This document shows positions 10,062-43,980 of a DNA stretch of 64,000 nt, piece after piece (position 1 is the stretch's first letter; each line of letters begins with the position of its first letter). The notes beneath the pieces were generated by a model. It ran no database searches. It saw nothing but the letters and a program-made list of their open reading frames with translations, and had not been told where the DNA came from. The stretch comes from Thiobacillus denitrificans DSM 12475 (GTDB lineage: Bacteria > Pseudomonadota > Gammaproteobacteria > Burkholderiales > Thiobacillaceae), in contig NZ_AQWL01000009.1 in NCBI RefSeq assembly GCF_000376425.1, positions 24,722-88,721 on the forward strand. The letters are read 5' to 3'. A program made the translations under genes and the position numbers.

Positions 10062-10203
10062 AGAGCGCCCGCGAAGCGGGCTTCAAGTCAAAAGTTACAA
10101 GTTGCAAGTTGCAAGTTTCGAGCGAAACAAACGGCTGCACGCCCTGCCACGAACATCTTGTAACTTGAATCTTGCAACTTGAAGCCCGAGCAGCGGGCGC
10201 TCT
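10062..10203. repeat. Heptad-repeat element A, with extended terminal inverted repeats
   Basis: Left arm of CAAGTTN heptads (about 10083-10118), a core that, read on the minus strand, contains GTTCGTGGCAGGGC, and a right arm (about 10157-10183) of AACTTG heptads. The arms are enclosed by longer inverted termini: AGAGCGCCCGC...GCGGGCTTCAAG on the left and CTTGAAGCCCG...GCGGGCGCTCT on the right. The right terminus overlaps the epsA stop codon (10202-10204). The same right terminus occurs in element B. Confidence 0.75.
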
Positions 10204-10978
10204 ATTCCTTGTTGCGTATGGCCTGCGCGCGCAGGAAGCCCAGCCCGATCGCCTTGGCGACGGCCTGGCCGCGGGTGCGGACGACGAGTTTCTTCATCGC
10301 GTGGCGCAGGTGGTTCTTGACGGTGAGCATCGACAGGCCAAGAATGGCGGCGATTTCGTCGTTGGTCTTGCCTTCGCGAACCCAGGTGAGCACTTCGACT
10401 TCGCGCGCGGTGATGAGCCCGACGGGACGCTCGCTATCGGTGCGGGTGCGCGCTTCGTTGGCGAGCACCCGCACCAGGGTTGCCAGCAGGTGCGGCAGCA
10501 GGATGTCGAGATAGAGCGCGAGGCGGCCATCGAAAGGCACCCGCACGCGTGAAAAACTGGCGTACCCCCTGATCTGGCCGTTGATCCAGCTCATGCCGTG
10601 AAAGGCGACGTTTTTCAGTTCCAGATCGCTCAGTCGGGCATGCCAGCCACCGGCCTCGTCCTTATGCGCGGCGATCATGCGCGGCTCGCCGAAGGCCTGC
10701 CATTCCTGCGACAACTGGTTGATCAGGCCGTTTCCGGGATGAATGACGCGCTGGTAATGATCGTCCTTGAAATAGCGACAGGCGGTGAAGCGCTCGTGCA
10801 GCAGAAAACCGCTTTCATCCGCCAGTCCACACAGCAGGATTTCATGGGGAATGAGCGACTGCACCGGGCCGTGCACCCAGCTGAAAAAATGATGGCGCTG
10901 CGTCACCCGCCGCGAGGCGATCAGGATGCGCGCCAGATGGCCGCATTCTTCGTCGGTCAATTCATTGGTGTTGTGCAT
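10202..10978 (-). CDS. epsA: LuxR-type regulator EpsA of the XrtB exopolysaccharide locus
   Basis: 258 residues from ATG 10978, chosen for the good upstream AAGGGGAGC; an upstream in-frame extension lacks such a site. The N-terminal about 170 residues form a sensor-like domain with no recognisable response-regulator phosphoacceptor. The C-terminus is a LuxR/GerE helix-turn-helix (ITAREVEVLTWV...KTNDEIAAILGLSMLTVKNHL). This layout matches the EpsA regulator found with exosortase-B loci in betaproteobacteria (family knowledge). It is divergent from the EAL/GGDEF gene, with element B between them. Probable role: transcriptional control of exopolysaccharide and PEP-CTERM genes; target sites not identified. 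Confidence 0.82.
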   Translation of the reverse strand: MHNTNELTDEECGHLARILIASRRVTQRHHFFSWVHGPVQSLIPHEILLCGLADESGFLLHERFTACRYFKDDHYQRVIHPGNGLINQLSQEWQAFGEPRMIAAHKDEAGGWHARLSDLELKNVAFHGMSWINGQIRGYASFSRVRVPFDGRLALYLDILLPHLLATLVRVLANEARTRTDSERPVGLITAREVEVLTWVREGKTNDEIAAILGLSMLTVKNHLRHAMKKLVVRTRGQAVAKAIGLGFLRAQAIRNKE

Positions 10979-11035
10979 GGAGCTCCCCTTGGGCGGCGAG
11001 CATAGGCGTGGGCAATGACAGCGGCATGACATTTG

Positions 11036-11150
11036 CAGGATTCAAGATACAAGTCGCCAGGTGTTCGTGGCAGGGCTGAAAGCCGCTTGCTTCGCTTGAA
11101 TCTTGCAACTTGAATCTTGTAACTTGAAGCCCGCTTCGCGGGCGCTCTGC
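11036..11150. repeat. Heptad-repeat element B
   Basis: A short left arm (ATTCAAGATACAAG), a core GTTCGTGGCAGGGCTGAAAG then CCGCTTGCTTCGC, and a right arm TTGAATC-TTGCAAC-TTGAATC-TTGTAAC-TTGAAGC. It ends with the same GC-rich terminus (AAGCCCGCTTCGCGGGCGCTCT-like) as element A. It fills most of the 235-bp divergent intergenic region between epsA and the EAL/GGDEF gene. Confidence 0.75.
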
Positions 11151-11213
11151 TGTTCACACGCGCGTAACGCTGGCGGTCTATCGTCCACCAACCCCCATTC
11201 CCATACCTTCCCC

Positions 11214-13055
11214 ATGAGCCATGAAGAGTTGCGCCTGCATCTGGATCACATCCTGGCAAACGCGCGATTGATGACCTTGCTGCAGCCGATCCTCAACCTG
11301 GTCGACGGGCGGGTGATGGGCTACGAGGCGCTGTCGCGCGGGCCGTCCAACAGCCCGCTGCATGGGCCGCAGGCGCTGTTCCGCGTGGCCGAGCAGCACG
11401 GCCGGCTGGCGGCGCTCGATTGGGCCTGCATGCGCACGGCGCTGAGGACCTTCGCGCGGCTGAAACTGCCGGGCCAGCTGTTCGTGAATCTGTCGCCCGG
11501 CAGCCTGCTCGACGCGTCCTTCGCCCCGGTCGCAGTATTGGCGGCGCTGAACGACGCAGGCCTGGCCAGCAGCCAGGTGGTGATCGAAATCACCGAAAGC
11601 GCACCCGCGATCGACTACGCGCAATTGCGGCAGGTCGTCGCCAGATTGCGCACAGCCGGGATCGAGGTGGCCCTGGACGATCTGGGCGAGGGGTTTTCCA
11701 GCCTGCGGTTGTGGTCGGAGGTGAAGCCGGCTTTCGTCAAGATCGACAAGCATTTCATTTCCGGGATACACCAGGACCCCCACAAGGTCCAGTTCGTGCG
11801 GTCGATCAAGCTGCTGGCCGAAGGCGCGCATTCCCTGGTCATTGCCGAAGGCGTGGAAAGCACGTCCGAACTCGCGGTACTGAAAGACCTGGGCATCCGT
11901 TATGCGCAAGGCTATCTGATCGGCCGCCCCTCGCCGGTGCCGGTCCGGCTGCCGTCGCGCGAAGTGCAGGCATGCCTGCAATCCGGCACGGTCAGCGTGT
12001 TTCCCATGCCGCAAAGAAATGACGGCCTGCACGTATCGGCCAAAAGGCTGGTGATGTCCGCGCCGTCGGTGAGCCCGCAGACGGCCAGCCAGGACGCGCT
12101 TGAGCTGATGATGCAGCATCCCGACCTGCATGCGGTGGCTGTGGTGGACGACGGCATTCCGGTCGGCATCCTCCATCGCCCCGCCCTGCTCGACCAGTTC
12201 ATCACCCTGTACGGGCGCGAACTGCATGGCCGCAAACCCTGCCGCGACCTGATGGACGGCGACCCGCTGATCGTCGACAAGGCCACGCGCATGGCCGAGC
12301 TGTCGGAACTGGTGGTGAAAAAAGGCAAAACGGCCTTCACCCAGGGGTTCATCATTACCAGCGAAGGGCGCTACCTGGGGATGGGGTCGGGTTTCGACCT
12401 GATGCGCGAAGTGACCGAAATGCAGCTCGTCGCCGCGCGCTATGCCAACCCGCTCTCCGGCCTGCCTGGCAACGTTCCGCTCCAGGAGCACATGGAACGT
12501 CTGCTCACCAACGAACAGACCTTCGTCACCGCCTATTTCGACCTCGACCAGTTCAAGCCCTACAACGACGTCTACGGCTTCCGCCGCGGCGACGACATCA
12601 TCCAGCTGCTGGCGCGGATCATGCGCGAAAGCTGCAATCCCGAACTCGATTTCGTCGGCCACATCGGCGGAGACGATTTCGTCGTGCTGTTTCAGAGTCT
12701 CGACTGGGAAGTGCGCTGCCACGGCATGCTGGCCCGCTTCGACCGCGAATGCCGGACCCTGTTCAACCCCGAGCACGTGGCAGCCGGCGGCTACCGCAGC
12801 GAAGACCGCCGCGGCACCATGACTTTCCATGCGCTGGTGTCGCTGTCCATCGGCGCCGTCCTGGTCGACCCCACCCATTTCCACCAGTATCAGGAAGTCG
12901 CGCGCGCCGCCACCGAAGCCAAGCGCATGGCCAAGCGCACCGATGGCAGCATCCTGTTCATCGACCAGCGCAGAATGCCGTCCGGGCGCAAGCTGGCATC
13001 GGATGAAAACAAGCTGGCGCCGGATGAAGACCTGCCCCTGGCGAATTGCGCCTGA
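11214..13055 (+). CDS. EAL-CBS-GGDEF cyclic-di-GMP protein
   Basis: 613 residues, cytosolic, no membrane segment. Order: EAL domain (about 1-250; EALSRG at 38-43, NLSP, EITES, LDDLGEG, KIDKHFI, IAEGVE, QGYLIGRP), a CBS-pair region (about 275-395, ending near GYLIGR-distal ...TQGFIITSEGRYLGMGSG), then a GGDEF domain whose signature is GGDDF. The EAL metal and catalytic residues look present, so phosphodiesterase activity is plausible. GGDDF departs from GG(D/E)EF, so cyclase activity is doubtful. Start is ATG 11214; the frame remains open further upstream but that part reads through heptad repeats. Divergent neighbour of epsA. Confidence 0.85.
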   Translation: MSHEELRLHLDHILANARLMTLLQPILNLVDGRVMGYEALSRGPSNSPLHGPQALFRVAEQHGRLAALDWACMRTALRTFARLKLPGQLFVNLSPGSLLDASFAPVAVLAALNDAGLASSQVVIEITESAPAIDYAQLRQVVARLRTAGIEVALDDLGEGFSSLRLWSEVKPAFVKIDKHFISGIHQDPHKVQFVRSIKLLAEGAHSLVIAEGVESTSELAVLKDLGIRYAQGYLIGRPSPVPVRLPSREVQACLQSGTVSVFPMPQRNDGLHVSAKRLVMSAPSVSPQTASQDALELMMQHPDLHAVAVVDDGIPVGILHRPALLDQFITLYGRELHGRKPCRDLMDGDPLIVDKATRMAELSELVVKKGKTAFTQGFIITSEGRYLGMGSGFDLMREVTEMQLVAARYANPLSGLPGNVPLQEHMERLLTNEQTFVTAYFDLDQFKPYNDVYGFRRGDDIIQLLARIMRESCNPELDFVGHIGGDDFVVLFQSLDWEVRCHGMLARFDRECRTLFNPEHVAAGGYRSEDRRGTMTFHALVSLSIGAVLVDPTHFHQYQEVARAATEAKRMAKRTDGSILFIDQRRMPSGRKLASDENKLAPDEDLPLANCA

Positions 13056-13154
13056 CGCCTGCATCGTGCGCTATCTCCGCCCGGGCTCAGTCTGCGCGCC
13101 ACTGAACGGCGCAGGCCTGGGCGAGCAGGCAGGCGCGCCCAGGCGACAAAGCGC

Positions 13155-13682
13155 TCAGATGAAACGGCGGCGCGATACCATGAACCCGACCAGGCCCATA
13201 CCCGCCAGCAGCATGACGTAGGATTCCGCTTCGGGAATCGGCGCGGCGGCCAGCGCGCCGCCGTAGCTGCCGCCGAGCGTGCCGCTCACCTCGCCGGACA
13301 CGACGAACTGGTAGCCCATGGCGGCGGCCAGACTGGCGGCGATCGACAGGGTGTGGTTGATCGGCGTATCGTCGAACGCGATGACGTTGTCGGCGCTGTC
13401 CTTGAAAGCGATCATGAAATTGCTGATCTGGAATTCCTGTCCGGCGAACTGCGCAATGTCGAGGTTGATGGTGACCGCGGTGCCCACCGTGGTAGAGAGT
13501 GGCAGGATGTCGAACGTGTAGATATCGTTGATCACCGATCCGGCAGTAAAGCTGTTGCCGATGCTGACGGTCTGGCCGCTCAGGTTGCCGAGATATCCGG
13601 GCGTGGCGGCCGCGGCAGAACCCATGGCGGAGGCCAGCGAGAACGCCAGCAGCGTTTGCACGAATTTCATGAAGCACTCCAA
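13155..13682 (-). CDS. PEP-CTERM sorting domain protein (second)
   Basis: 175 residues. Signal peptide MKFVQTLLAFSLASAMGSAAA, a compact beta-rich body (about 25-140) and the C-terminal signal PIPEAESYVMLLAGMGLVGF followed by MVSRRR. Start ATG 13682 has GGAGTGCTTC just upstream, the same leader style as the other PEP-CTERM genes. It stands alone on the minus strand, converging with the EAL/GGDEF gene. Function beyond being an exported XrtB substrate is unknown. Confidence 0.88.
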   Translation of the reverse strand: MECFMKFVQTLLAFSLASAMGSAAAATPGYLGNLSGQTVSIGNSFTAGSVINDIYTFDILPLSTTVGTAVTINLDIAQFAGQEFQISNFMIAFKDSADNVIAFDDTPINHTLSIAASLAAAMGYQFVVSGEVSGTLGGSYGGALAAAPIPEAESYVMLLAGMGLVGFMVSRRRFI

Positions 13683-13995
13683 ATAAAACAGACCGATAGA
13701 TATAGCGCGTGATCGACTGGCAACCGGCCGCCCGCATCTGCTGCGCTTCTCCCAAAGCTGCGCGGGTCCTGGTGTTTCCGGCCCCGCCTCGCGACGGGTG
13801 TGGCTTTTCAGTACGCAGGCAGTGTGGCGCAGCGATGTTGCAGCCGGTGGTGGCCGCGGCGCTGCGGATATGGCACGTTCGGGCCAATGGGCCGCGCCGC
13901 CATGGCATCCGGACCATGCGGGTTTGCCTGCACTGTCATATGCGCCTCATCTTGCGGGGTAAGGATGAGGCTCCGGTCAAATCAGGTGAAATGCC
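13683..13995. other. Non-coding interval with an 8-bp-stem hairpin
   Basis: About 310 bp with no supported gene. A perfect hairpin GCCTCATC...GATGAGGC lies at 13944-13971, 12-nt loop, just upstream of the small plus-strand reading frame at 13996, where it could act on that message. A TGGCACG-like half sigma-54 motif near 13873 lacks the TTGC element. Confidence 0.45.
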
Positions 13996-14238
13996 ATGGA
14001 CACGAAAAACGGGATACGCGAAGCGCAGGCCCACCCGCTGGCGGAGGAAGCACGGCACGAACCCGGCGACGCACTGCCCGACGAGCACGACGACTACGCC
14101 GAACAATGCGATTACGCCGGCTGTTATCCGTGGCTGGCGGACGTCATCCGTGCCCAGCTGCGCCACAGAGCGGCCCTCAATGGCCTGCAGGGTGACGATG
14201 CGGCCGGGGAAGACGATTTACCGTACTGGACCGTCTGA
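13996..14238 (+). CDS. Small acidic hypothetical protein
   Basis: 80 residues, strongly acidic with clustered D/E (DEHDDYAEQCDYAGCYPWL), no signal peptide or membrane segment. ATG 13996 follows AGGTGAA at a good distance, and no annotated gene lies opposite it, which is why it is kept. No family recognised. It could be spurious: it is short and isolated between two minus-strand PEP-CTERM genes. Confidence 0.35.
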   Translation: MDTKNGIREAQAHPLAEEARHEPGDALPDEHDDYAEQCDYAGCYPWLADVIRAQLRHRAALNGLQGDDAAGEDDLPYWTV

Positions 14239-14284
14239 CGGAATCCGCCCCGCGATACACCCGGCATCCTGCGTCCTGCACCGC

Positions 14285-14313
14285 CAAAAAAAGACCCGCC
14301 GTGAGGCGGGCCA
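14285..14313 (-). terminator. Intrinsic terminator after the third PEP-CTERM gene
   Basis: On the minus strand GGCCCGCC-TCAC-GGCGGGTC is followed by an uninterrupted run of seven T. The stem is 6-8 bp with one mismatch. It lies about 150 bp past the stop of the 14461-15159 gene. Confidence 0.75.
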
Positions 14314-14460
14314 AGGATGCGCGTGAACGCATTGGATGAAACTCGACCCGCGCCATCGCTGGTCAGGCGACGCCGTTCGGGCGGCTCACGCCGGGCTGGC
14401 GGCGCAGCGCGCCGCTGCCGGTTTTCGTTGTATCGCTGCCGGGTTTTACTTCCGCCTGGC

Positions 14461-15159
14461 TTATTTTCGCGCGGCGCGGCGACGCAGCGCCGCCCAGCCG
14501 ACCAGACCCAGGCCCGCGAGCATCATGGCGTAGGTATCGGCTTCGGGCACCGGGGTGACCGCGACGGTACCCACGCTCAGGCCGGCAAATTTCTTCTCGA
14601 TGAAAGCCAGCGAGACGGGGTTCGAGGTCGATGCCAGCAGCAGGTTTTCCACGGTGACGTTGAGCACGCGCGCATCCAGGGCGGACACGTTGGCCGATGC
14701 CGTCGCGGTCCAGTTGTGCGTGGGTAGGCCGGGCGTGGTCAGCGGCACCGTCGGGGCGATACCGGTCGTCATGTCGGCCAGTGGCGCGGCGACGTCGAAG
14801 ACGCGAATCTGGCCGCCGACATCGACCGTGCCGCCGCTGCCAAGCAGCAGGTAATCGCCGCGCTCGACCAGATCGAGCGTGTTGAATGCGTAGCCCGAAC
14901 GCGCCGTCAGCGTGACGTTGATCGTGGCATTGGCGAGGGAAAAACCCGCGCCGTTGGACGACTGCGCATCGAAGGCCGTGGGGGTGAAGTACAGCGTATC
15001 GCCGGACACGCTGGCCGGGCCGAACAGACCGAGCCAGGCGTCATCGAAGCTGAAATCGACCGTGCTTCCGGACAGGGTGACGGGGGCTGCAGCCGCACCG
15101 CCAGAGAGGGCCTGACCGAGCACGAACATGCCTGCGGCCAGAAGATTCACGCGCTTCAT
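14461..15159 (-). CDS. PEP-CTERM sorting domain protein (third; paralogue of the fifth)
   Basis: 232 residues from ATG 15159 (AAGGAGTCAATC upstream); a longer in-frame extension exists but has no signal peptide. Signal peptide MKRVNLLAAGMFVLGQALSGGAAAA, body, then PVPEADTYAMMLAGLGLVGW and ALRRRAARK. The body aligns by eye along its length with the protein at 45820-46542: TVDFSFDDAWLGLFG against TVSFTFDSGLSGLFG, NVTVENLLLA against NVTIENILLA, and AFIEKKFAGL against AFIEKKFAAL. These are duplicated or co-inherited members of one family. Function unknown. Confidence 0.9.
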   Translation of the reverse strand: MKRVNLLAAGMFVLGQALSGGAAAAPVTLSGSTVDFSFDDAWLGLFGPASVSGDTLYFTPTAFDAQSSNGAGFSLANATINVTLTARSGYAFNTLDLVERGDYLLLGSGGTVDVGGQIRVFDVAAPLADMTTGIAPTVPLTTPGLPTHNWTATASANVSALDARVLNVTVENLLLASTSNPVSLAFIEKKFAGLSVGTVAVTPVPEADTYAMMLAGLGLVGWAALRRRAARK

Positions 15160-15304
15160 GATTGACTCCTTCTTGTGTGTGCAGAGTGGAAAACCTGACG
15201 CTGTCGCCCCGTCCACCTGCTGTGCGGCACGACACCCGAAAACCGTTTGGCCCGCGCTTGCGGCCGGCCCGCCTGCCTGCCGGACATCCGGCAAACAAGG
15301 CTCA

Positions 15305-15774
15305 GCGCACGCCGAAGGGGAAGCGAAGATCGCAACGCCACGACGGCGTGCGCATGAGACGTCGCCGAACGGACGTTCGGACGACAAGGAGCGGACGGGA
15401 CGTGGGAGACGTCCGGTCCTGGCATCGATGAACGACGCCGACTGCTTTCACGCGCACTGCCTGCTGTTTTATTTACCGGGTCGGGCGCCGGTTCTGCGAC
15501 CGGTCTGACCTGCCCGTTTTTTTACAAGCTGTTATCTGCCTCGCGGCCTTCTCCTGCCGGATTGCCGCGAATGGAAACCCGCGTCCAGGCGCACGCCGAA
15601 CCGGAATCTGCAATGGGAATGTCCGCGCAGCACCGTTTCGGCGTGCGCGTGGGATGTCGTTGCACGAACCAACGACCACAGAATGCGGGTGCCCCCGGAG
15701 AGCGGGACGACCCTGGCGCCGATCCTCCGGCGCCTTACTGCTTTTCACGCGCACTGCTTGTTGCTTTATTGTGT
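15305..15774. repeat. Two degenerate direct copies of a structured non-coding unit
   Basis: Copy 1 is 15305-15475 and copy 2 is 15589-15774. Each begins with an inverted repeat (15305-15314 with 15344-15353, stem GCGCACGCCG; 15589-15600 with 15637-15648, stem GCGCACGCCGAA). Each ends with a closely similar tail (ACTGCTTTCACGCGCACTGC then a T-rich end; copy 2 has TTTTC and TTGTTG variants). No gene is supported anywhere in 15160-16072. The remainder of that gap holds the PEP-CTERM leader, a T7 run near 15519 and a palindrome at 15882-15903. Confidence 0.6.
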
Positions 15775-15939: not shown

Positions 15940-16064
15940 GGTTCAAGTTGCAAGGTGCAAGTTACAAAGGGGCCGTGGCCGGGCATAAAGCCGCTCGCTC
16001 TCCTTGCACCTTGCACCTTGCACCTTGAAACTTGAAACTTGAAACTTGCACCTTGAAACTTGAA
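15940..16064. repeat. Heptad-repeat element C
   Basis: Left arm TTCAAGTTGCAAGGTGCAAG..., core GGCCGTGGCCGGGCATAAAG then CCGCTCGCT, and a long right arm of TTGCACC/TTGAAAC heptads running to within 9 bp of the rhomboid start codon. The core is nearly identical to that of element D. Confidence 0.8.
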
Positions 16065-16669: not shown

Positions 16670-16762
16670 GGTTCAAGTTACAAGACTCAAGATTCAAGGT
16701 GGTCGTGGCCGTGCATAAAGCCGCTCGCTGCTCTTGAGCCTTGCAACTTGAACCTTGAACCT
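16670..16762. repeat. Heptad-repeat element D
   Basis: Left arm TTCAAGTTACAAGACTCAAG..., core GGTCGTGGCCGTGCATAAAG then CCGCTCGCTGCTC, right arm TTGAGCC-TTGCAAC-TTGAACC-TTGAACC. It fills the gap between the convergent rhomboid (stop at 16666) and galE (stop at 16768) genes. Confidence 0.8.
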
Positions 16763-19006: not shown

Positions 19007-20209
19007 TTAGCCTTCCCCTCTTGAACCTTGAATCTTGTAACTTGCGTCTTTGGCTTGTCGCTGCTCAGCCAGCACCCCGTCATAAATCTCCATCAGGCGC
19101 CGGTAATTCACCTCGGCAGAAAACTCGGCTAGGTATTGCACTCGGGCCTTTTGCCCCATCTCCGCCATCCCCTCGGGATGTGCCAGCGCCCAAGCCATCT
19201 TGTCGGCCAGGTCGCGTGGATTTCCCGGCTCGAACAGCAGACCGGTTTCGCCATCGCGAACGATGTCGGCCAGCGCGCCGATGCGGCTGGCAATCACCGG
19301 CAAGCCGCAGGCAAACGCCTCCACAATCGTGCGTGGAAAATTCTCGTACCAGATGCTCGGCACCACCAATGCCATCGCGCGGTTCATTTCCTGACGCACC
19401 ATCTCACCCGGCAGGCTGCCCAGGCAGGTCACGCCCGTCACGCCGTCCAACAAGCCCGCTTCGGGGCCGTCACCCGCCACCCGCAAAGCCGCATCGGGCA
19501 ACCGCGCCATGGCCCCGGCCAGCGTGGCCACGCCTTTTTCAGGCGACAGCCGCCCCACGAAGAGCAAGCCTGCGCGCAGCGCCGGTTCGGGCGCGGCAAA
19601 GTCCACAAAATTCGGCTTCACCACCACGCGCTCGGCAGGCAGGCCGCCTTCGATGAACTTGCCCCGACAAAACTCGTTCAGCGCAATATAGCGCGCCACC
19701 TTGTTGCGATACGTCCCCAGCCCGCGATGCAGCGCCAGCATTCCCGCCAGCGCCGCCGACGCAGCATGCGACCCCCGATAGCAAGCCCGCGCCACGCCGC
19801 GCCAGGGCAGCTGCCCCATGCAGTCCTCGCACACTGTCCCATCGCGCAGAAACAGTGCGTTCAAGCACATCAGGCGGAAGTTGTGTAGCGTCTGTACCAC
19901 CGGCACCCCGGCACGTGCAGCGGCCCAGTAGAGCGAAGGCGAAATTAGTGGAAACGTGTTGTGCGTGTGGATCACGTCGGGGCGAAAGCGCACGACCAGC
20001 GAGGCAAGATCATGTGGCGTGCGATCCGACCACAGTGTCTGCCGGGCAAGGGCCAGCGACGACATGCCGCCCACTTCGTCGTTGCTACGGGCATAAGTTT
20101 CCACCGCATGCCCATGCGCGCGCAGCAGCGCGATTTCCGACTCGACCACCGTGTCCTCGCCGCCGCGATGTTGATACGCGTTGTGGACGACCAGCACGCG
20201 GCACGCCAT
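19007..20209 (-). CDS. GT4-type glycosyltransferase with repeat-encoded C-terminus
   Basis: 400 residues, GT-B fold. N-terminal acceptor half with HNAYQHRGGEDTVVESE and HTHNTFPLISP; C-terminal donor half with FVGRLSPEKGVATL and IWYENFPRTIVEAFACGLPVI (E-x7-E type). A cysteine pair CEDCMG sits mid-protein. Its ATG shares one base with the preceding stop (TGATG). The last dozen residues (ASYKIQGSRGEG) are encoded by a heptad-repeat arm, so the original C-terminus has probably been replaced or extended. Likely assembles the exopolysaccharide repeat unit; linkage unknown. Confidence 0.88.
   Translation of the reverse strand: MACRVLVVHNAYQHRGGEDTVVESEIALLRAHGHAVETYARSNDEVGGMSSLALARQTLWSDRTPHDLASLVVRFRPDVIHTHNTFPLISPSLYWAAARAGVPVVQTLHNFRLMCLNALFLRDGTVCEDCMGQLPWRGVARACYRGSHAASAALAGMLALHRGLGTYRNKVARYIALNEFCRGKFIEGGLPAERVVVKPNFVDFAAPEPALRAGLLFVGRLSPEKGVATLAGAMARLPDAALRVAGDGPEAGLLDGVTGVTCLGSLPGEMVRQEMNRAMALVVPSIWYENFPRTIVEAFACGLPVIASRIGALADIVRDGETGLLFEPGNPRDLADKMAWALAHPEGMAEMGQKARVQYLAEFSAEVNYRRLMEIYDGVLAEQRQAKDASYKIQGSRGEG
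19018..19045. repeat. Heptad-repeat arm E (solo, inside a coding end)
   Basis: CTTGAACCTTGAATCTTG followed by TAACTTGCG: three to four heptads of the right-arm type. They are read in frame as the tail of the 19007-20209 glycosyltransferase. No left arm or core is seen within 100 bp. Confidence 0.75.
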
Positions 20210-29535: not shown

Positions 29536-30606
29536 TCATGCGTTTGCCGCGATGAAATCCCGGTACGCCGCAGCCAGCCCGTCCCGCATGGTGGTTGTGG
29601 CCTGCCACCCCATGGCATTCAGCCGCCCCACGTCCATCAGCTTCCTCGGCGTGCCGTCCGGCTTGCTGGCATCGAATTCGAGCCTGCCCGCGTAACCCAC
29701 GGTGGCGGCCACGGCTTCTGCAAGCTCGCGAATGCTGAGGTCGTGCCCCACGCCAATGTTCATCAGCGGCGCCAGGCCGTCGTTGCGGTCCTGCCCCAGC
29801 AGCGAAACGAACTTGTCATCCGGCAGGTTCATCAGGTAGACGCAGGCGTCGGCCATGTCCTCGCTGTAGAGGAATTCGCGCTTCGGCGTGCCGGTTCCCC
29901 ACACGGAAACAGCAGGTTCAAGTTGCAAGTTGCAAGTTGCAAGGAGGCGGTCCTTGAGGTCCTGGGGGATGGGGCCGTTTTTGGCTTCGTCCTGCTCGAT
30001 GGCGGCCCAGTTGCGCTCGGATGCGAGCTTGGCCAGATGAAACTTGCGGATCATGGCCGGGATCACGTGCGAGTTCATCAGGTTGTAGTTGTCGCCGGGG
30101 CCGTACAGGTTGGTGGGCATCACCGCCAGGTACTGGGTCTGGTACTGCCGGTTGTAGGCCCAGCACATTTCGATGCCGGCGATCTTGGCCAGCGCGTACG
30201 GCCGGTTGGTCGGCTCCAGTTCGCTGGTCAGCAGGTGCTCTTCCTTCATCGGCTGCGGCGCGAGCTTGGGGTAGATGCAGCTGGAGCCGAGGAACAGCAG
30301 GCGCTTCACCTCGTTCCTGTATGCAGCGTGGATGATGTTGGTCTGGATGGCGAGGTTGTCGCGAATGAATTCGGCAGGATAGATGTTGTTGGCGTGGATG
30401 CCGCCGACCTTGGCCGCGGCGAGGAAGACGTAGTCGGGTTTTTCCTGCTCGAAGAAGGCTGCGACGGCGGCCTGGTCGGTGAGATCGAGTTCGGCGTGGG
30501 TACGCGTCAGGAAGTTCGTGTAGCCCTTGGCGCGCAGGTTGCGCATGAGCGCGGTGCCCACCAGGCCACGATGGCCGGCGATGTAGATTTTAGAATCCAA
30601 TTTCAA
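29536..30606 (-). CDS. fcl: GDP-L-fucose synthase carrying a repeat-encoded insertion
   Basis: 356 residues. NADP-binding GHRGLVG at 11-17, GSSCIYP, catalytic YxxxK (Tyr137, Lys141), and terminal [19 protein letters not shown], all canonical. Residues 222-230 (LATCNLQLE) are encoded by a heptad-repeat arm at 29917-29946, lying in a loop that varies in length in the family, before [11 protein letters not shown]. There is no ATG at the N-terminus: the frame opens with TTG codons at 30606 or 30600 inside or beside repeat arm G1, so the native start may have been replaced. Converts the gmd product to GDP-L-fucose. Catalytic residues are intact, so activity is plausible. Confidence 0.85.
29917..29946. 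repeat. Heptad-repeat arm F, in frame within fcl
   Basis: GTTCAAGTTGCAAGTTGCAA continuing to GTTGCAAGG: four heptads of left-arm type. The frame is preserved across it. No right arm is found within the gene. Confidence 0.8.
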
Positions 30607-30677
30607 GTTACAAGTCCCAAGTTACAAAACTCAAGTTACAAAACTCAAGTTACAAGATTCAAGTTACAAGTCTCAAG
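30601..30677. repeat. Heptad-repeat arm G1 at the fcl start
   Basis: The longest array in the window: about ten heptads of CAAGTTA/CAAGTCC/CAAAACT type. It overlaps the first codons of fcl and occupies its ribosome-binding region. Together with G2 and G3 it bounds the four-helix-bundle gene. Confidence 0.85.
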
Positions 30678-30893
30678 GGAGGCCTGGAACTTGCGATCTG
30701 AAACATGCTACGCATATCTTTTGCACCCAAATTGAGGTCACAGTTTGTGATCTCGAAACCATCCGGTGCTCCGAAGGCATCATCGGTTGCCAGTTCATTC
30801 CAGCCAGGTGGTCACAACTCGTGACCACCTGGGTCTGTGTACTGCTACATTGCAGAGGTTGCAGGTCCAGGCACTTCCCTTGTAACTTGCAAC
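30678..30893. other. Gap between arm G1 and the four-helix gene: palindromes, possible gene remnant, arm G2
   Basis: Contains an imperfect palindrome GAGGTCACAGTTTGTGATCTC-like at about 30733-30753 and a perfect 11-bp inverted repeat CAGGTGGTCAC-AACTC-GTGACCACCTG at about 30808-30834. Read on the plus strand the first palindrome encodes KLRSQFVISK, resembling part of the ORF6N/KilA-N domain, so a decayed gene remnant is possible. A short heptad arm (G2, CTTGTAACTTGCAACT) follows at 30877-30899, overlapping the end of the four-helix gene. Confidence 0.4.
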
Positions 30894-31247
30894 TCAATTC
30901 TTCTGTGTCCTGATTGTCTGCATCAATCCATGCAGCATGCGCGAGATTTCTTCTGCTTCTTTGATCCACTGCATACCTGTATCGCGCTCGATGTAGCCAA
31001 TATCAATGCCAATATAAATTTGCGTCCTGAATTCGCCTGCAGAACCCTTCGCATAATTCAGGAAGTTGGTCGTTTCCTTTGCCGGCTCACGCTCATAACC
31101 TTCAGCAATATTGGATGGAATCGACAACCCAGCCCGCGTAATCTGATCGCAAAACCCAAAATCTTTAAGATCTCTCAGCGATTTATACAGATCCGCACTC
31201 AACCGTGCCGATCGCTTCCAAACTGCCAGATCCTCAAACCGGGCCAA
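30894..31247 (-). CDS. Four-helix-bundle protein (23S-IVP/bAvd-like, TIGR02436 type)
   Basis: 117 residues, the family's usual size. Opens RFEDLAVWKRSARLSADLY and contains the hallmark QITRAGLSIPSNIAEGYERE, then TTNFLNYAKGSAGEFRTQIYIGIDIGYI. The start is TTG 31247 preceded by AAGGAAG at good spacing; no ATG fits. The gene lies between inverted heptad arms (G1 and G2 to the left, G3 to the right) and between gmd and fcl, which it separates. Members of this family are encoded in 23S rRNA intervening sequences and resemble the accessory protein of diversity-generating retroelements; they bind nucleic acid or reverse transcriptase in those settings. No reverse transcriptase is seen here. Confidence 0.9.
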   Translation of the reverse strand: MARFEDLAVWKRSARLSADLYKSLRDLKDFGFCDQITRAGLSIPSNIAEGYEREPAKETTNFLNYAKGSAGEFRTQIYIGIDIGYIERDTGMQWIKEAEEISRMLHGLMQTIRTQKN

Positions 31248-31254
31248 GGTCGCT

Positions 31255-31288
31255 TCCTTGAAACTTGTTACTTGTAACTTGCAACTGC
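31255..31288. repeat. Heptad-repeat arm G3 between gmd and the four-helix gene
   Basis: CCTTGAAACTTGTTACTTG then TAACTTGCAACTG, right-arm type. It ends 1 bp from the gmd stop codon and supplies the ribosome-binding region of the four-helix gene on the minus strand. Confidence 0.8.
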
Positions 31289-38631: not shown

Positions 38632-39293
38632 CAGAAGCTCCACTGGCCGGTGGCCACCACATAGGCGCCGAGCAGGCCGTTGGTGACGGCGTGCGCGACG
38701 ATGGGCGCCCACAGGTTGCGAGTGCGGATATACAGCCAGCCGTAAGCCAGACCGGCAACCAGGCCGGCCAGCCACTGCAGGTGCTCGACGGCGAACAGCG
38801 CGCTGGCGATCAGCAGCGCCTTGAGACCGATCCGTGCCGGATCGAGCGCCAGAAAATCGGACTGCTGCACCCAGCGCTGCAGGAACGAGCGCCAGAACAG
38901 CTCTTCCATCACCGGCACCACCAGCGCGGCGCCGGCGATGCGGAACGCCACCAGCAGCCAGTCGATGCGGTCGGATCCATCGGTGGGGTCGTAGCCTTCG
39001 CCCACCTCGCCCATCAGCATCCAGCCGGCGTCGAGGTTGACCCACAGCACCAGCACCACGATGCCCACCGCCAGCGACAGCAGCAGGTGTCCCAGCGACA
39101 GGCCCCAGGTTTTGAGTTCGCCGTAATGGCGCCACAGTACCGCCAGCGCCAGAGCCACCAGCCCGGCCTTGAGCGGATACAGCCAGCGTGCGTCGAAACC
39201 GGGCGCCCAGCCGGGCAGCAGGCCTTCCAGCGCAAGCAGGGCGATATACAGCCCGAACGGCAGGCTGCGGACGAAAATGGGGGACGTCAGCAC
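38628..39293 (-). CDS. CAAX-type (CPBP) intramembrane protease, PEP-CTERM associated
   Basis: 221 residues, about seven membrane helices. CPBP motifs VMEELFWRSFLQRW, FAVEHLQWLAGL and APIVAHAVTNGLLGAY. This is the type named CAAX prenyl protease-related in exosortase loci. Only GTG 39293 is available as start: an in-frame TAA within heptad element H lies 21 bases upstream and no ATG occurs, so the repeat may have reshaped the start. Exact substrate unknown. Confidence 0.87.
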   Translation of the reverse strand: MLTSPIFVRSLPFGLYIALLALEGLLPGWAPGFDARWLYPLKAGLVALALAVLWRHYGELKTWGLSLGHLLLSLAVGIVVLVLWVNLDAGWMLMGEVGEGYDPTDGSDRIDWLLVAFRIAGAALVVPVMEELFWRSFLQRWVQQSDFLALDPARIGLKALLIASALFAVEHLQWLAGLVAGLAYGWLYIRTRNLWAPIVAHAVTNGLLGAYVVATGQWSFW

Positions 39294-39308
39294 GGACGCG
39301 AGACCGGT

Positions 39309-39405
39309 GAGTTACAAGTTACAAGTTGCAAGAGTCTGCGAAAGCGCGCGGCACGCCGCCCACCAGCTGTCGTCTTGAACCTTGTAACTTGTCCCTTGTA
39401 CCTGC
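39309..39405. repeat. Heptad-repeat element H
   Basis: Left arm GTTACAAGTTACAAGTTGCA (39311-39330), a 40-bp core (AGTCTGCGAAAGCGCGCGGC...) and right arm CTTGAACCTTGTAACTTG then TCCCTTGTACC (39373-39403). It fills the gap between epsD (stop at 39410) and the protease start (39293). The core is only loosely like those of A-D. Confidence 0.75.
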
Positions 39406-39409
39406 TTTT

Positions 39410-40372
39410 TTACTTGAGTCCGGAAATGCCCTTGCTGATCGCGTCGGCGTCAGCATCGGGCGCAGCCGGAGCAGCGTCGGCAGCCGGTGCGGCTGGCTTC
39501 TCGGCAGGCGCCGCGGCTTCCTTGCCGGCATCGGCAAACTCGCCCACATATTCGATCGTGGCGGCGGCCTTCAATGCATCCAGTTCGGCCTTGGCTGCCT
39601 TCTGGCGCGCCTCCGTCTGCAACAGGCGGGTGATCGCCGGCTTGGCCTGCTCCAGCGTCACCGGCTGCACCTGCGAATCCGCCAGCACGACGACCAGCAG
39701 GCCGTCCGGCGCATTCACCACCATCGCCTGGCCGTCGGGCATCTTGGCCAGTTGCGGCAGGAGTTGCAGCGGCAGCTGCTCGGCCGGTTTGACGCCCTGC
39801 GCCGCTTTGACCGGAAGGTTCTCCGCTTTCAGCCAGGCGGCGAAATCGTTCAGGTTTTTGGATGTGCCCAGCTGGGCGCGGATCGCATCGTGCTTGTCTG
39901 CCGGCGCCTTGATCGAGAGTTCCTGCAGGCGATAGATCTTGCGCTTGGCGAACAGCTCGGGGTGATTATCGAAATATGTCGACACCTCGGCATCGGACGG
40001 CTCGGCCGGCGTGCCCAGCTTGCGGCTCATATAGGCCTCGGCCAGAACCTGGCGGCGCGCGGCATCCAGCGCCTGCACCACGGTGGGGTCGCGGTCCAGC
40101 TTGTCGGTCAGCGCCTTCTGCACCAGCAGTTCCTGGTCCACCAGATTGCGTACCACCTGCAACGAAGCCGCCTTGGATTTTTCCGCGTCGAGATTGGGAA
40201 TGCGCTGCAGCGCGTAGTTCACCTGATGCACCGTGAGCTCGGTGCCGTTGACCTTGGCCGCCACCTGGGTCGCCGCCTTCTCGCCCGTTGCCGTCTCCTC
40301 TTTCTTGTCGCCGCAACCCACAACCAGCGCGGCAATCAACAACGGCAGGACCAGCTTCTTCAAACCTTGCAT
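39410..40372 (-). CDS. epsD: EpsD, exported SurA/PpiC-type peptidyl-prolyl isomerase lipoprotein
   Basis: 320 residues. Lipoprotein signal with lipobox LVVGC (Cys20). SurA_N-like helical part (KVNGTELTVHQVNYAL...LVDQELLVQKAL), a PPIase-like segment (YRLQELSIKAPADKHDAI), then an Ala/Pro-rich tail. EpsD is the XrtB-locus isomerase thought to help fold exported proteins. Good Shine-Dalgarno GAGGAAG before ATG 40372. The PPIase domain appears degenerate, so a chaperone role is likely. Confidence 0.88.
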   Translation of the reverse strand: MQGLKKLVLPLLIAALVVGCGDKKEETATGEKAATQVAAKVNGTELTVHQVNYALQRIPNLDAEKSKAASLQVVRNLVDQELLVQKALTDKLDRDPTVVQALDAARRQVLAEAYMSRKLGTPAEPSDAEVSTYFDNHPELFAKRKIYRLQELSIKAPADKHDAIRAQLGTSKNLNDFAAWLKAENLPVKAAQGVKPAEQLPLQLLPQLAKMPDGQAMVVNAPDGLLVVVLADSQVQPVTLEQAKPAITRLLQTEARQKAAKAELDALKAAATIEYVGEFADAGKEAAAPAEKPAAPAADAAPAAPDADADAISKGISGLK

Positions 40373-40585
40373 TTTGTCTTCCTCTTGATCCGGATTATTG
40401 GAAATTATGTGGTGCGAATGTTACAGCAAGCACAGCGGCAGAGATCGCATGCAGGAAACATGCCAAATCAGAAATACGTGAAAAGTTTTCGATGCGGGAT
40501 GAAAGCGATTCTATATGGCCCATCAATTTCAATAGCGTGATCCTGCAATGCTGCCATTCGCGCTCCCTTGCGTACTTCCTGAACA

Positions 40586-40614
40586 CAAAAAGCCGGGAAC
40601 ACCGCCCCCGGCTT
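40586..40614 (-). terminator. Intrinsic terminator after the FadL-OmpA gene
   Basis: On the minus strand AAGCCGGG...CCCGGCTT forms an 8-bp stem with a 9-nt loop and is followed by TTTGTG. It lies 25 bp past the stop codon. Confidence 0.75.
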
Positions 40615-40638
40615 GACAAAACGATTCCGGCTGGGCGA

Positions 40639-42516
40639 TCAGAATTCCAGTGCCATACCTGCCGTCACGAGGTCGATGTCATATTCTTTCCGGTCGAAGC
40701 GTTCCCACTCGACGCGAAGATTCAGATTGTCGAGCAGCGCGTAGCTGATGCCCACCCCATAGTTGGGCTCATAGCTGTCGTCGCCGCTTCGCACCGTGAG
40801 TGCGGTACCGTTCTTCACCTTGACGTCGGCAAGCATGTAGGCCGCACCCAGCTTGCCCATCACCGACAATTTCCCGGTAACCGGATAGCTGACCACTGCG
40901 CCCAGTGTCCAGGCATCGGCCGCCACGTTCGTGACGACCGCTCCGGTTCTGGCCGTCATGTCGTTGAGATTGGCATAACCGCCCTCGACGCCGAGGTACT
41001 TGTTGAACTGGTAGCCGCCGTAAACCTTCCAGCCTTCGGTGCGGGTATTGGCAGAGGCTTCGTCAATGTCCCCGTATTTCGACTGCCCGATTCCCAGACC
41101 TGCATACCAGCCGTCGAAGTTGATGCCGGCCCAGTCGCTTTCGCCGTATTCTTCCAGCGCGACCGGGCCCGGGTCGAGCACCCAGCCGAAGGTGAGGCCG
41201 AACATGTTCTGGTGCATGTTGAACGAGGCGCAATTAAGGATATTCTGGCCGCAAGCCGTCTGGCTGTTTGAGGCTGCATACATATACGTCCCAGAAACTT
41301 CCAGGTTGTCATTCGCCTTGTAAGTGAAGCCCAACGAGTAATGCCGTTCCACCGTGGCAGGAGCCAACAGGTTGAAAGTCACCTGGTTGTCCGGAATTGG
41401 GCTCTTGCCGTAGTTGTAGCCAGCCCGCAGCTTTAGCTTGTTGTTCACGCCATACTGAACGCCCAGTTTGTAGACAGTCTGGTCGGTCCAACCGAAACCC
41501 ATACCATTGTCCATGCCCAGTTGCTTGTCTGTTGTCCCCGTCTTGATTGTGTCGGCAACAGAAGGTATGCCCATTGGCCCAACGGGCGAACTCATTCCAG
41601 GATTACCCACCGAGGCAACATTGCTGTAATTGATCCGCATAACATCGGCGGCAACAACCAGATTCTTGACAGGCTTGATCGCAATACCAATACCGTAGTT
41701 TTCTGGTATATCGAAATCGCCTTGCTCCGCAAACAGACCTCGGTACTTGTCAAACTTGGTCATATAGGCCTTGGACGCGTAGGTCAGGCCGACGTTCAGC
41801 CGGTCGTCCATGAACTTACCCAGCCAGCCTAAGCGGATACCTGCACCATAACTATAATCAAAACCGTTATCCGTCATATGGGCCGGATCTGACGTGATTT
41901 TGAAAACAGGCGCTAATGTTTGGAAATATGGGAAAGCAGCGAGCCCGTACGCACGAAAGCGCGTTTCAGCCAGCACAAGCGAGGCACCGATAGCATGTTC
42001 TTCATTGATCTTGTAGGCGACAGTTATCGGGACCAATACCTGCATCATGTCCACACCAACTTTCTGGTCCCTTGGTGGAACACTGTCATTGAATGAGAAA
42101 AAGTTATCCGGATAGGTTGTATTCATCCCTCCGTTGCCAACTACGGCAAGGGCAACATGTAGCTTGTCATCCAGCGGCATGCTGAATCCCATTTCCGGCA
42201 TGATGAAATACTTCGCGTCACTTTCGACATTTCCATGAAATCCATAAAAATAATCGCCACCTGCATCGGCACCCACGGCAGCATGCCGCTCTGGATTGAA
42301 CACAGCGAAGCCCATATCGCCGCGCATGCCAATATTGACCGCATTGGCCGGGTTAGCCGCGGTGGACAGGGAATCACGGCCATAAGCAATACCAACACCA
42401 CCCATACCCTGTGACCGGATTCCAAAACCCGGCAGGAAATAACCATTGGTGGCATGAACCGGGAACGCAGCCATACAGGCCGCGGTTAACACCGCGTGTT
42501 TTAGAGTGAAACGCAT
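40639..42516 (-). CDS. FadL/TodX-type outer-membrane channel fused to an OmpA-like beta-barrel
   Basis: 625 residues from ATG 42516 (GGAGGAGAT upstream; an in-frame extension upstream is not needed). Signal peptide MRFTLKHAVLTAACMAAFPVHA. Residues about 23-460 form a FadL/OMPP1 protein: TNGYFLPGFGIRSQGMGGVG hatch start, AANPANAV, GWTDQTVYKLGVQYG. Residues about 469-625 form a separate 8-strand OmpA-like barrel (GWYAGLGIGQSKYGD...GGYQFNKYLGVEGGYANL...MALEF). FadL channels usually end after the first barrel at about 430-460, so this is a double-barrel fusion. Predicted hydrophobic-compound uptake. Confidence 0.88.
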   Translation of the reverse strand: MRFTLKHAVLTAACMAAFPVHATNGYFLPGFGIRSQGMGGVGIAYGRDSLSTAANPANAVNIGMRGDMGFAVFNPERHAAVGADAGGDYFYGFHGNVESDAKYFIMPEMGFSMPLDDKLHVALAVVGNGGMNTTYPDNFFSFNDSVPPRDQKVGVDMMQVLVPITVAYKINEEHAIGASLVLAETRFRAYGLAAFPYFQTLAPVFKITSDPAHMTDNGFDYSYGAGIRLGWLGKFMDDRLNVGLTYASKAYMTKFDKYRGLFAEQGDFDIPENYGIGIAIKPVKNLVVAADVMRINYSNVASVGNPGMSSPVGPMGIPSVADTIKTGTTDKQLGMDNGMGFGWTDQTVYKLGVQYGVNNKLKLRAGYNYGKSPIPDNQVTFNLLAPATVERHYSLGFTYKANDNLEVSGTYMYAASNSQTACGQNILNCASFNMHQNMFGLTFGWVLDPGPVALEEYGESDWAGINFDGWYAGLGIGQSKYGDIDEASANTRTEGWKVYGGYQFNKYLGVEGGYANLNDMTARTGAVVTNVAADAWTLGAVVSYPVTGKLSVMGKLGAAYMLADVKVKNGTALTVRSGDDSYEPNYGVGISYALLDNLNLRVEWERFDRKEYDIDLVTAGMALEF

Positions 42517-42672
42517 ATCTCCTCCGGGAGTTTTATTGGAATTGAGAGCCCAATGGGTGAGGTATTCCGCTCTCCCCAAAGGCTGGTTCAAGATTACAGG
42601 TGGCATGCCTATATGTAGTGCCACACAGTGATCACCGAACAGACCTTGTACAGAATGTTGGATAGACCCAAA

Positions 42673-42708
42673 CAAGCAATACGGCGGGTTAACCCGCCGT
42701 ATTGCTTG
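42673..42708. terminator. 36-bp perfect palindrome downstream of the fourth PEP-CTERM gene
   Basis: Half-site CAAGCAATACGGCGGGTT mirrored exactly around 42690/42691 with GTTAAC at the centre. On the minus strand it is followed by TTTGGG, so it may terminate the PEP-CTERM transcript, but the poor T-tract and zero loop also allow a protein-binding site. A second hairpin GTCCCGG...CCGGGAC lies beside it at about 42710-42733. Confidence 0.6.
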
Positions 42709-42761
42709 AGTCCCGGCCGGGCTGACCGGGACAATTGAAGCGGCCTATCAGCCGCATTCAA

Positions 42762-43427
42762 TCAGGCCGTCAACTTGCGACGACGCACTGCGAAGCCCAC
42801 CAGGCCCAGACCAGCCAGCATCATGCCGTAGGTCGAAGCTTCGGGAACGGGGGCTGCAGCGACGTGCTGCATATTGAAGTTGGCGCTAAAGCCGGGGAAG
42901 GCACCGTCTACCATGCGGGCACCCAGAATGCCATCGCCCTCGACGTCCGTGGAGGTATAAGTAGTCACGCCACCAGAGGTGGCCACGTCCCATACCAGGA
43001 ACACGTCAATGCCAGAGGTTGCGCCCCAGTTAAAGTTGATGTTGCCACCAAGTTGGCCTGCGCCCACCGTAAAGGTGTAGAAGCCATCACCGTTCGCCAG
43101 CGGAGCATTGGCAATGCCTGACAATTCGTTCGAGCCATCACCATTGACGCTGACAGTGTGGGTACCAGTTCCGTACAGCGTGCCACCATTGGCGGTCCAG
43201 GAGGTCCATTGGAAGGTATCGGTGGCTACCAGGCTGAAAGTGCCCGCTGCAATATCAATCTGACCCGTTACCGCAGCCGCGTCGCCAGCCTGGTTATCGC
43301 TGGCATCCATATTGAAACCACCCGGGTTCTTCATAATGAATTCTCCGGTCCAATTTACCGGATCAGCCAGGGCAACACTGGAAGCACCGACAAGCGCAAC
43401 TGCCAATAAGGTTTTTGTGAATTTCAT
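42762..43427 (-). CDS. PEP-CTERM sorting domain protein (fourth)
   Basis: 221 residues. Signal peptide MKFTKTLLAVALVGASSVALA, body with WTGEFIMKNPGGFNMD, GQIDIAAGTFSL, FNWGATSGIDVFLVWDV, and tail PVPEASTYGMMLAGLGLVGF plus AVRRRK. Probable secreted surface protein processed by XrtB. A sigma-54-like promoter lies 115 bp upstream, matching the PrsK/PrsR-controlled sigma-54 promoters described for PEP-CTERM genes in other bacteria. Codon use and GC are slightly lower than its neighbours. Confidence 0.92.
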   Translation of the reverse strand: MKFTKTLLAVALVGASSVALADPVNWTGEFIMKNPGGFNMDASDNQAGDAAAVTGQIDIAAGTFSLVATDTFQWTSWTANGGTLYGTGTHTVSVNGDGSNELSGIANAPLANGDGFYTFTVGAGQLGGNINFNWGATSGIDVFLVWDVATSGGVTTYTSTDVEGDGILGARMVDGAFPGFSANFNMQHVAAAPVPEASTYGMMLAGLGLVGFAVRRRKLTA

Positions 43428-43541
43428 TTTTTAAGTCTCCTCATGTAGATATGTATCGATCGATTTATCAACTACATCCTCCTGCCACATGGTGTAAATA
43501 TTCTTTGCACCGAATAGTTACCTTCGCGGCGACAAGCACTT

Positions 43542-43557
43542 AGCAATGGCCGTTCCA
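43542..43557 (-). promoter_or_regulatory. Sigma-54-type promoter of the fourth PEP-CTERM gene
   Basis: Minus strand TGGAACGGCCATTGCT compares with TGGCACG-N4-TTGC(A/T): one mismatch, with GG and GC at the required 10-bp spacing. It lies 115 bp before ATG 43427. No enhancer-binding protein gene is in the window. Confidence 0.6.
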
Positions 43558-43903
43558 GCTTGGCAGAATTTTTATTTATGGCTTTTACAATCAATCATTT
43601 AACAATTTTATCTAGTTGTTTTGGATGCTGCGACTAGTAGGTTTGGATCATGTCTGTAAAATAATCCGACAAAAATGACCAAAAAAATGGCTAAACAGGC
43701 CATGAAAAATGAAAGCCAGACAGGATTCCTGGGCGTTAATATGGAATTAGTTGTTTTGTATCAATTAGATGGTATTTTTATACTCTATTTTATTGATGTG
43801 TAAAATTTATCGACAAATCGTTTGTTCATATGTTTAATTGATATGAACATAGATCCAGTTTTGCCTTGGGCGGGGATATGCAGCCGTGGGGCCTGGCCTC
43901 GCC
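43558..43903. other. AT-rich non-coding island
   Basis: About 300 bp (43575-43850) of markedly AT-rich DNA in a GC-rich region, with no supported gene. TTAGTTGTTTTG-type sequence occurs twice (about 43613 and 43750). It may be the upstream activating region of the sigma-54 promoter or a patch of foreign DNA. Confidence 0.5.
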
Positions 43904-43980
43904 AGTTCAAGATTCAAGGTTCAGCAGGCGGATGCTCAGCACAGGTGATACCCCCTTGCAACCTGTCTCTTGAATCTTGC
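43904..43980. repeat. Heptad-repeat element I
   Basis: Left arm GTTCAAGATTCAAGGTTCA and right arm CTTGCAACCTGTCTCTTG then AATCTTGC around a 35-bp core without clear likeness to A-D. It ends 4 bp from the stop codon of the EpsB-like gene. Confidence 0.7.

Follow-up and report, generated by a model that had tools for sequence, protein, structure and literature searches.

Inverted heptad-repeat elements in Thiobacillus denitrificans, one of them carrying an IVP gene, and the framing of IVP genes by heptad arms

The repeats described here lie in a stretch of 64,000 nucleotides from the genome of Thiobacillus denitrificans DSM 12475 (the window; contig NZ_AQWL01000009.1, positions 24,722 to 88,721). 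Between gmd and an epimerase gene read as fcl, inverted CAAG/CTTG arms stand on either side of one intact gene for a 23S rRNA-intervening-sequence protein (IVP, S23 family), and this element (30604-31281) measures 678 bp from end to end. Six further elements, A to F, are gene-less; their left arms are made of CAAGNNN units and their right arms of NNNCTTG units. Within the window, a gene of family PF05635 was found only in the element at gmd-fcl, which sits between protein genes and not within 23S rRNA. All coordinates are collected in Table 1. The genome of strain DSM 12475 is called the home genome below, and numbers preceded by G, L and C are our handles for genomes, loci and contigs.

An earlier annotation of the window, made from the letters alone (the first-pass annotation), had named the positions of the heptad arms, and arms were present at all of them, including the solo arms at 19020-19044 and 29919-29943. 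The repeat unit had been given as CAAGTTN. The period of seven was confirmed; the motif had to be corrected, as most mismatches fell on the two T positions. In 72 home-genome matches to three consecutive CAAGTTN units, the CAAG positions carried 2.1 mismatches each and the TT positions 23.2 each, the tally covering matches with one to three mismatches and excluding perfect matches and exact tandem duplicates. Twenty-nine different triads occurred among 146 read from exact home-genome arms, the most frequent being ATT (24), TTG (23), GTT (21) and TTA (19). The unit is a conserved tetrad, CAAG, followed by three nearly free bases. The arm orientation was constant as claimed, a CAAG arm being followed by a CTTG arm: neighbouring exact arms of at least three units in the home-genome stretches read stood in the order left-right 13 times, left-left once and right-left never.

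In the home genome the pattern (CAAGNNN)3CAAG, with up to two mismatches allowed, matched 67+70 times and its reversed form 15+0 times, one long array yielding several matches; with the looser CAAGTTN pattern the counts were 39+50 and 25+8. The excess of CAAGNNN matches far above the reversed-pattern control bears out a dispersed family beyond chance. A motif-free scan of the window found four inverted arrays at period 7, four at the harmonic 14, and none at periods 4 to 6 and 8 to 13. Random slippage alone was ruled out as the origin, because CAAG stays fixed while the triad varies and because the periods are restricted to 7 and 14, with octads in two loci. The core shared by elements A to D was seen directly, that of A being inverted relative to the other three. 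Hairpin folding was likewise supported: nine of ten elements folded as RNA gave z scores of -3.2 or lower (one of them -3.19), and F reached only -1.6. A search of positions 9000-45000 against Rfam returned no match at the gathering score.

Table 1. Heptad-armed elements, single arms and the IVP gene in the window.
Feature	Position	Strand	Remarks
Element A, gene-less heptad hairpin	10084..10181	-	Core inverted relative to B-D; RNA fold z -4.8
Element B, gene-less heptad hairpin, type I core	11043..11126	+	RNA fold z -3.2
Element C, gene-less	15944..16062	+	Right arm of 9 units; orthologous site in G030 filled
Element D, gene-less	16674..16757	+	Lies where rhomboid and epimerase genes converge; core flipped relative to flanks in G030
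Single CTTG arm	19020..19044	.	Encodes residues at the C-terminal end of a glycosyltransferase (gene 19007-20209, -)
Single CAAG arm	29919..29943	.	In frame within the fcl-like epimerase gene (codes LLATCNLQL)
Left (CAAG) arm of gene-bearing element	30604..30677	+	Abuts TTG start of fcl-like gene; 216 nt from IVP reading frame
Short CTTG stretch beside IVP gene	30876..30890	.	Same direction as right arm; whole small hairpin here in G013 and G016
IVP gene, 117 aa, four-helix bundle	30894..31247	-	PF05635, E 9e-32; TIGR02436
Right (CTTG) arm of gene-bearing element	31257..31281	-	8 bp from gmd stop
Element E, gene-less	39315..39398	+	Site in relatives: heptad arms or short GC hairpin
Element F, gene-less, short-armed	43908..43979	+	Weak hairpin, z -1.6

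The arms at 30.6-31.3 kb had been recognized in the first-pass annotation, which overlooked that two of them frame a single IVP gene. Its reading was incomplete in this respect, because the gene between the two arms is the key to the identity of the family. At the gmd-fcl junction of 30 loci an IVP gene with CAAG arms was present in eight (the copy in G030 is cut by a contig end); 12 were empty (21 nt), seven held other inserts, two held about 100 nt with a heptad trace, and one was not resolved. The seven other inserts are ORF6N-like or HepT/MNT-like by our reading of the sequence. In G078 and G070 the arms lie close to the IVP gene on both sides, while G013 and G016 have an extra small hairpin beside the gene; in the home copy a short CTTG stretch and a possible gene remnant occupy the interval between CAAG arm and gene. 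The palindromes GAGGTCACAGTTTGTGATCTC and AGGTGGTCACAACTCGTGACCACCT at 30680-30880 fall within this interval; they resemble part of the ORF6N-like inserts that L251, L262 and L277 carry at the same junction, and are possibly that remnant. The IVP protein at gmd-fcl is under purifying selection: the ratio of nonsynonymous to synonymous substitution rates (dN/dS) was 0.02-0.10 in the 13 pairs, out of 21 among seven copies, for which dS was finite, pairs with L278 being excluded and several dS values lying near saturation. A tblastn search of 50,697 phage records (E up to 1e-5) found no match to the window IVP.

Three sets of IVP loci were examined for arms. A protein search in Thiobacillus gave 50 rows in 33 of 57 genomes, used as 49 loci of which 48 were measurable. 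In the phylum Pseudomonadota a family search matched 52 of 299 genomes (81 rows); 58 rows were used and 57 were measurable, the home genome, one row lying at the edge of a contig, and 21 rows that were fragmentary or weak having been left out. The third set comprised 21 plasmid records, mostly cyanobacterial, of which 17 were used and four near-duplicates omitted. An initial score, combining the tandem identity of both flanks at a given period with their complementarity, was best at period 7 in 113 of 122 loci (46/48, 53/57 and 14/17) and at period 8 in five, compared with 24 and 7 of 333 shifted windows from the same loci, and exceeded the 95th percentile of the controls in 116 of 122. This score does not require complementary arms, and it rewarded arms of the same direction in L278 and L279. 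A strict test was therefore added, which asked of both 26-nt arms 60% or more tandem identity and 62% or more reverse complementarity; the claim on IVP framing rests on it.

With 200-nt flanks and period 7 or 8, the strict test was passed by 98 of 122 IVP loci (Thiobacillus 43/48, other Pseudomonadota 43/57, plasmids 12/17) and by two of 349 controls. With 300 nt the figures were 104 of 122 (46/48, 45/57 and 13/17) and three of 315 shifted controls. Other periods gave zero to two loci per set. Most IVP genes examined are framed by inverted heptad arms. The arm motifs vary widely, for example GTAGGCA, GTGAGAT, GGGATTC and CAGGGAA, and the usual length is four to six units (75/92, 81/108 and 14/20 arms, the last set from 10 plasmid loci), with medians of 4.5 to 5. 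An element of this class thus ends on either side in an array of some five degenerate units of 7 nt, sometimes 8 nt, the two arrays being inverted. Octad arms were noted at IVP genes of L392, L427, L430, L456 and L458.

Framing was not a property of any small insert at the one junction where this could be compared, as none of the seven non-IVP inserts at gmd-fcl had an inverted heptad pair in its outer 150 nt; L265 had degenerate CAAG heptads on one side only. Two IVP loci of a genome of the same family, L445 and L446, lie inside 23S rRNA (Rfam LSU, large subunit) and have CAGG-type arms, so that genuine rRNA intervening sequences (IVSs) and intergenic elements share one arm design. Among the papers listed on IVP, S23 or IVS together with repeats, in which subscription journals were thinly covered, none stated the framing rule in its title or the opening of its abstract. 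On cyanobacterial plasmids (L406, L459 and L458) the IVP gene had either cas6 and cas4 or cas10 and a cmr3-family gene on its two sides.

The supposed confinement of the family to 10-44 kb was true of the window, but not of the genome, as elements were present on contigs C1-C9 and C22. The home genome had arms, mostly as inverted pairs, at some 30 places. The stretches fetched contained 32 clusters, four of them copies of one rRNA spacer; with that spacer counted once, 18 of 29 clusters were two-armed by script, and two further one-armed clusters were seen in L061 and L069. Outside rRNA a gene 3' end lay within 30 nt of 21 of 28 home-genome elements according to a home-made gene caller that is unreliable at B, at C and beside nusB; other elements separated divergent genes, lay within genes or stood at the start of a gene. 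In the spacer between tRNA-Ala and tRNA-Ile a CAAG heptad hairpin was present in all four home-genome copies (L066, 3627-3686, and three others), and the same spacer was longer and different in the four other genomes readable there. Arm expansions that look recent, mostly of one repeated heptad, were seen in G030 (23 CAAG units, L126 602-811) and in the home genome (16 CTTG units, L074 2628-2736).

Many further copies were found when the search was extended to relatives, in keeping with the dispersed family of the first-pass annotation. With up to one mismatch, 28 of 36 other Thiobacillus genomes had a match to (CAAGNNN)3CAAG, as had six of 24 genomes from the order's other families. The reversed pattern was matched, mostly in low numbers, in 10 of the 37 Thiobacillus genomes counted together with the home genome. 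The motif-free scan was also applied to flagellar loci, which were selected by fliF and not by repeats and were sorted into Thiobacillus-like and other loci by title and identity. The 35 Thiobacillus-like loci (641 kb) contained 10 inverted arrays at period 7, 14 at period 14 and five at period 8, with none at periods 4 to 6 and 9 to 13; the 45 other loci (888 kb) contained none at any period. The octads were inverted arrays of CACAGAG type in L142 (T. denitrificans RG; 8069, 13311, 20570 and 21051) and L205 (10185), an octad counterpart of the heptad hairpins.

Comparison of orthologous sites yielded both filled and empty states, though most copies compared stayed at fixed sites with fast internal turnover. 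By eye, the E site of 30 loci had CAAG-type arms in 18, a short GC hairpin in nine and other content in two, and one was not resolved; filled and empty states were intermixed on the tree of the flanking gene, in which the unresolved locus L246 carried the label 'empty'. Between cheZ and fliR (20 rows) a GC-rich hairpin was present in T. thioparus and L151, L141 and L150 looked intermediate, and heptads occurred in the home genome and four other species; the remaining rows had no GC-rich hairpin, heptads or REP-like (repetitive extragenic palindrome) repeat. REP-like GTGGGAGCGGCTTTAGCCGCGA repeats were seen in L147 and L202 at the position of the heptad hairpins of relatives. A run of T stood beside some elements (G024 at the E site, L141 at cheZ-fliR).

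The arm motif, here called the dialect, switched between species at hrcA-nadK, at the junction after nusB and downstream of cinA. Arms at these sites were of CAAG, CAGG, TAGG, TGAGC, GAGAG or TRAGG type, rich in purines in the left arm and in pyrimidines in the right; dialects, assigned by eye, could be resolved at 26, 28 and 28 loci out of 30, some of them without heptads. Relatives may carry, at one site, inverted heptads of other dialects, a plain GC hairpin or nothing. Cores may persist while the arms change, and the same cores reappeared at unlinked sites. Some cores were flipped: that of D had alignment scores of 10 forward and 62 reversed against G030, and that at hrcA-nadK scored 59 and 178 against G062 and 36 and 84 against G030. 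No flip was seen in C, nor in E against its closest relatives. A MITE-like reading (miniature inverted-repeat transposable element) is unsupported or incomplete here: the sites are mostly fixed, with turnover of motif and core, rather than freshly inserted, and the motif itself differs between species at one site.

Dialect was then related to the IVP protein. The Thiobacillus IVP genes occupied gmd-fcl, a site beside a transketolase-domain gene, a nucleotidyltransferase/dehydratase-like site, yebC-ruvC, one further shared site and one singleton. On the IVP tree (48 of 49 loci; six dialect groups assigned by eye) the dialect changed six times, the least possible being five and the shuffled mean 28.7; this tree alone is no proof of recognition, because IVP lineage and site largely coincide. 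Genomes with a CAGG-armed IVP hold more heptads of the same dialect, with a median of 92 CAGG pattern matches in 15 such genomes and 12.5 in 42 without (Mann-Whitney, 7e-7). The CAGG-IVP label was scattered on a 30-genome tree, with eight changes, no fewer than shuffled. Six independent pairs on that tree pointed on average 4.3-4.9 times in the same direction and never in the opposite one; the sign test remained at p 0.0625-0.25 because the pairs were so few.

The repeats of the window are probably heptad-armed, IVS-like palindromic elements, with A to F as gene-less members and 30604-31281 as the full form with its IVP gene. The two arms would pair, either as RNA in a transcript or as extruded DNA. 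IVPs presumably form five-fold rings and are kin to Avd, a protein of diversity-generating retroelements. The related solved structures 2GSC, an IVP relative named XCC0516, and 2RLD have five chains each, close to the usual arm length of five units. An IVP ring may bind tetrads repeated in its own dialect, each subunit taking about one unit of an arm present as RNA or extruded single-stranded DNA. Binding of this kind could maintain the element, now and then copy it and so drive its spread, acting in trans on gene-less hairpins. Between copying events, slippage and templating from arm to arm would alter the arms, flip cores and replace dialects; these two processes would account for changing unit numbers, for the spreading of a tetrad change along an array and for the flips. 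An IVS of 23S rRNA would be a member that landed in rRNA, from which RNase III would cut out the paired arms.

Several observations weigh against this interpretation. The strict test was failed by 24 of 122 IVP loci at 200 nt and by 18 at 300 nt; the latter were L303 and L305 in Thiobacillus, L375, L383, L387, L391, L394, L397, L431, L434, L442, L448, L450 and L451 in other Pseudomonadota, and plasmid loci L401, L402, L403 and L404. The home copy at gmd-fcl passes only with 300-nt flanks, because its CAAG arm is 216 nt away with the CTTG stretch between. The Thiobacillus IVP genes are limited to five shared sites and one singleton, with about one IVP lineage per site and no recent jump seen, so that the dialect tree confounds lineage with site. 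The sites compared showed no fresh insertion, and reading the pairs of filled and empty sites by eye revealed no target-site duplication, the junctions being blurred by heptad drift. The associations for the TGAGC and CAAG dialects run in the same direction and rest on three and four genomes (p 0.01 and 0.042), the CAAG counts covering 37 genomes only. Some genomes with many matches, for example G010, G073 and G080 with 53-67 TGAGC matches, had no IVP match with one protein query. Samples of 200 kb from the IVP-bearing genomes G151 and G297 contained no gene-less inverted array of period 7 or 8; samples from the IVP-free genomes G162 and G043 were equally empty. Given the empty G151 and G297 samples, IVP alone does not explain why gene-less copies are abundant, and the presence of an IVP gene as sufficient for gene-less spread elsewhere was not supported.

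The same empty samples also count against IVP genes having merely landed in pre-existing heptad hairpins, as the IVP loci of G151 and G297 are armed although no free heptad hairpins were there to enter. Such an order of events belongs to an explanation in which nothing moved: bidirectional terminators or stems at mRNA 3' ends would have grown their arms in place by 7-nt slippage and template switching, and IVP genes would have entered later. The nearness of 21 of 28 home-genome elements to a gene 3' end agrees with this, as do the GC-rich hairpins that take the place of heptads at cheZ-fliR, with loci of intermediate look, and at the E site in nine of 30 relatives. However, the same cores recur at unlinked loci, elements are also present within a gene, in the rRNA spacer and where hrcA and nadK diverge, and slippage would not hold CAAG constant while the triad drifts. 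We regard growth in place as unlikely.

MITEs and REPINs (REP doublets forming hairpins) are short dispersed palindromes, and the window family resembles MITEs in its terminal inverted repeats, many copies and shared interior. The first-pass annotation had proposed a MITE-like or RNA-folding element; dispersal, shared core, inverted termini and folding were all upheld. Movement of a conventional MITE or REPIN by a host transposase, of an insertion sequence (IS) or of the REP-associated tyrosine transposase (RAYT) type, would fit the dispersed palindromes with common cores and the filled and empty sites. Neither a target duplication nor a fixed terminal sequence was seen, however; the arms are tandem heptads that vary in length and change motif, and the only gene found between them is that of IVP, not of a transposase. 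Of the explanations weighed, this is the least probable. In a further reading the arrays would be binding sites of a sequence-specific regulator, a role proposed for the TAACTGA repeats of Beggiatoaceae (available text of PMC4679880); this would explain a tetrad conserved at a 7-nt pitch and the many copies near gene ends. But no function common to the neighbouring genes tested was found, the motif differs between species at one site, and neighbouring arms are inverted, whereas the repeats in that text are direct with one inverted case; regulator sites are very unlikely.

Among the closest known systems is the IVS of 23S rRNA. In Coxiella burnetii its terminal inverted repeats form a 28-bp stem, and tandem heptamers precede the S23p gene (PMC4990558, in the part available), so that an IVP-family gene between complementary termini is common to both; the relative G297 moreover has a 23S rRNA IVS with heptad arms. 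The window element differs in lying between protein genes, and most home-genome members are gene-less. The P6b stem of Nostoc trnL is built of heptads of one of two classes that have repeatedly and independently replaced each other (PMC4476775, available part), like the alternative motifs met at hrcA-nadK, nusB and cinA; it is a single locus in a group I intron, and no IVP gene is mentioned in the text available. In Xanthomonas, intergenic G-rich heptamers conserved at positions 1-4 and 6 form inverted pairs, 70 in Xcc and 75 in Xac from 186 and 183 repeat patterns (PMC4692102, available part). They share with the present family the intergenic inverted pairs, and the IVP relative of structure 2GSC is XCC0516; the Xanthomonas and Nostoc G-rich heptamers are treated as quadruplex-forming, and the term 'four helix' is absent from the available text of PMC4692102. 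The TAACTGA heptamers are intergenic as well, with 169 direct sets in one genome and one inverted; no core or gene between arms is described in the part of PMC4679880 available. Heptamer families are also included in a survey of bacterial satellites (PMC6749651, available part).

A wider proposal, which we put forward tentatively and hold to be somewhat less probable than not, is that the IVP/S23 four-helix-bundle proteins are dialect-specific binders of heptad arms, with one 7-nt unit per subunit of a five-fold ring. Arm and protein would together form an unnamed class of palindromic mobile elements, whose scattered members would include the 23S rRNA IVSs, the Thiobacillus hairpins, the heptamers of Xanthomonas and cyanobacteria and the P6b stem of Nostoc trnL.

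The role and origin of IVS elements and of S23p/IVP have been called unclear (PMC4990558, available part), and heptameric repeats are over-represented in many bacterial genomes, a detailed literature on them being said to be lacking (PMC4692102, available part). The rule that most IVP genes are framed by inverted heptad arms joins the first of these questions to the second. A hairpin family that keeps its site while swapping its motif between species is a good system in which to study the co-evolution of a repeat and its reader.

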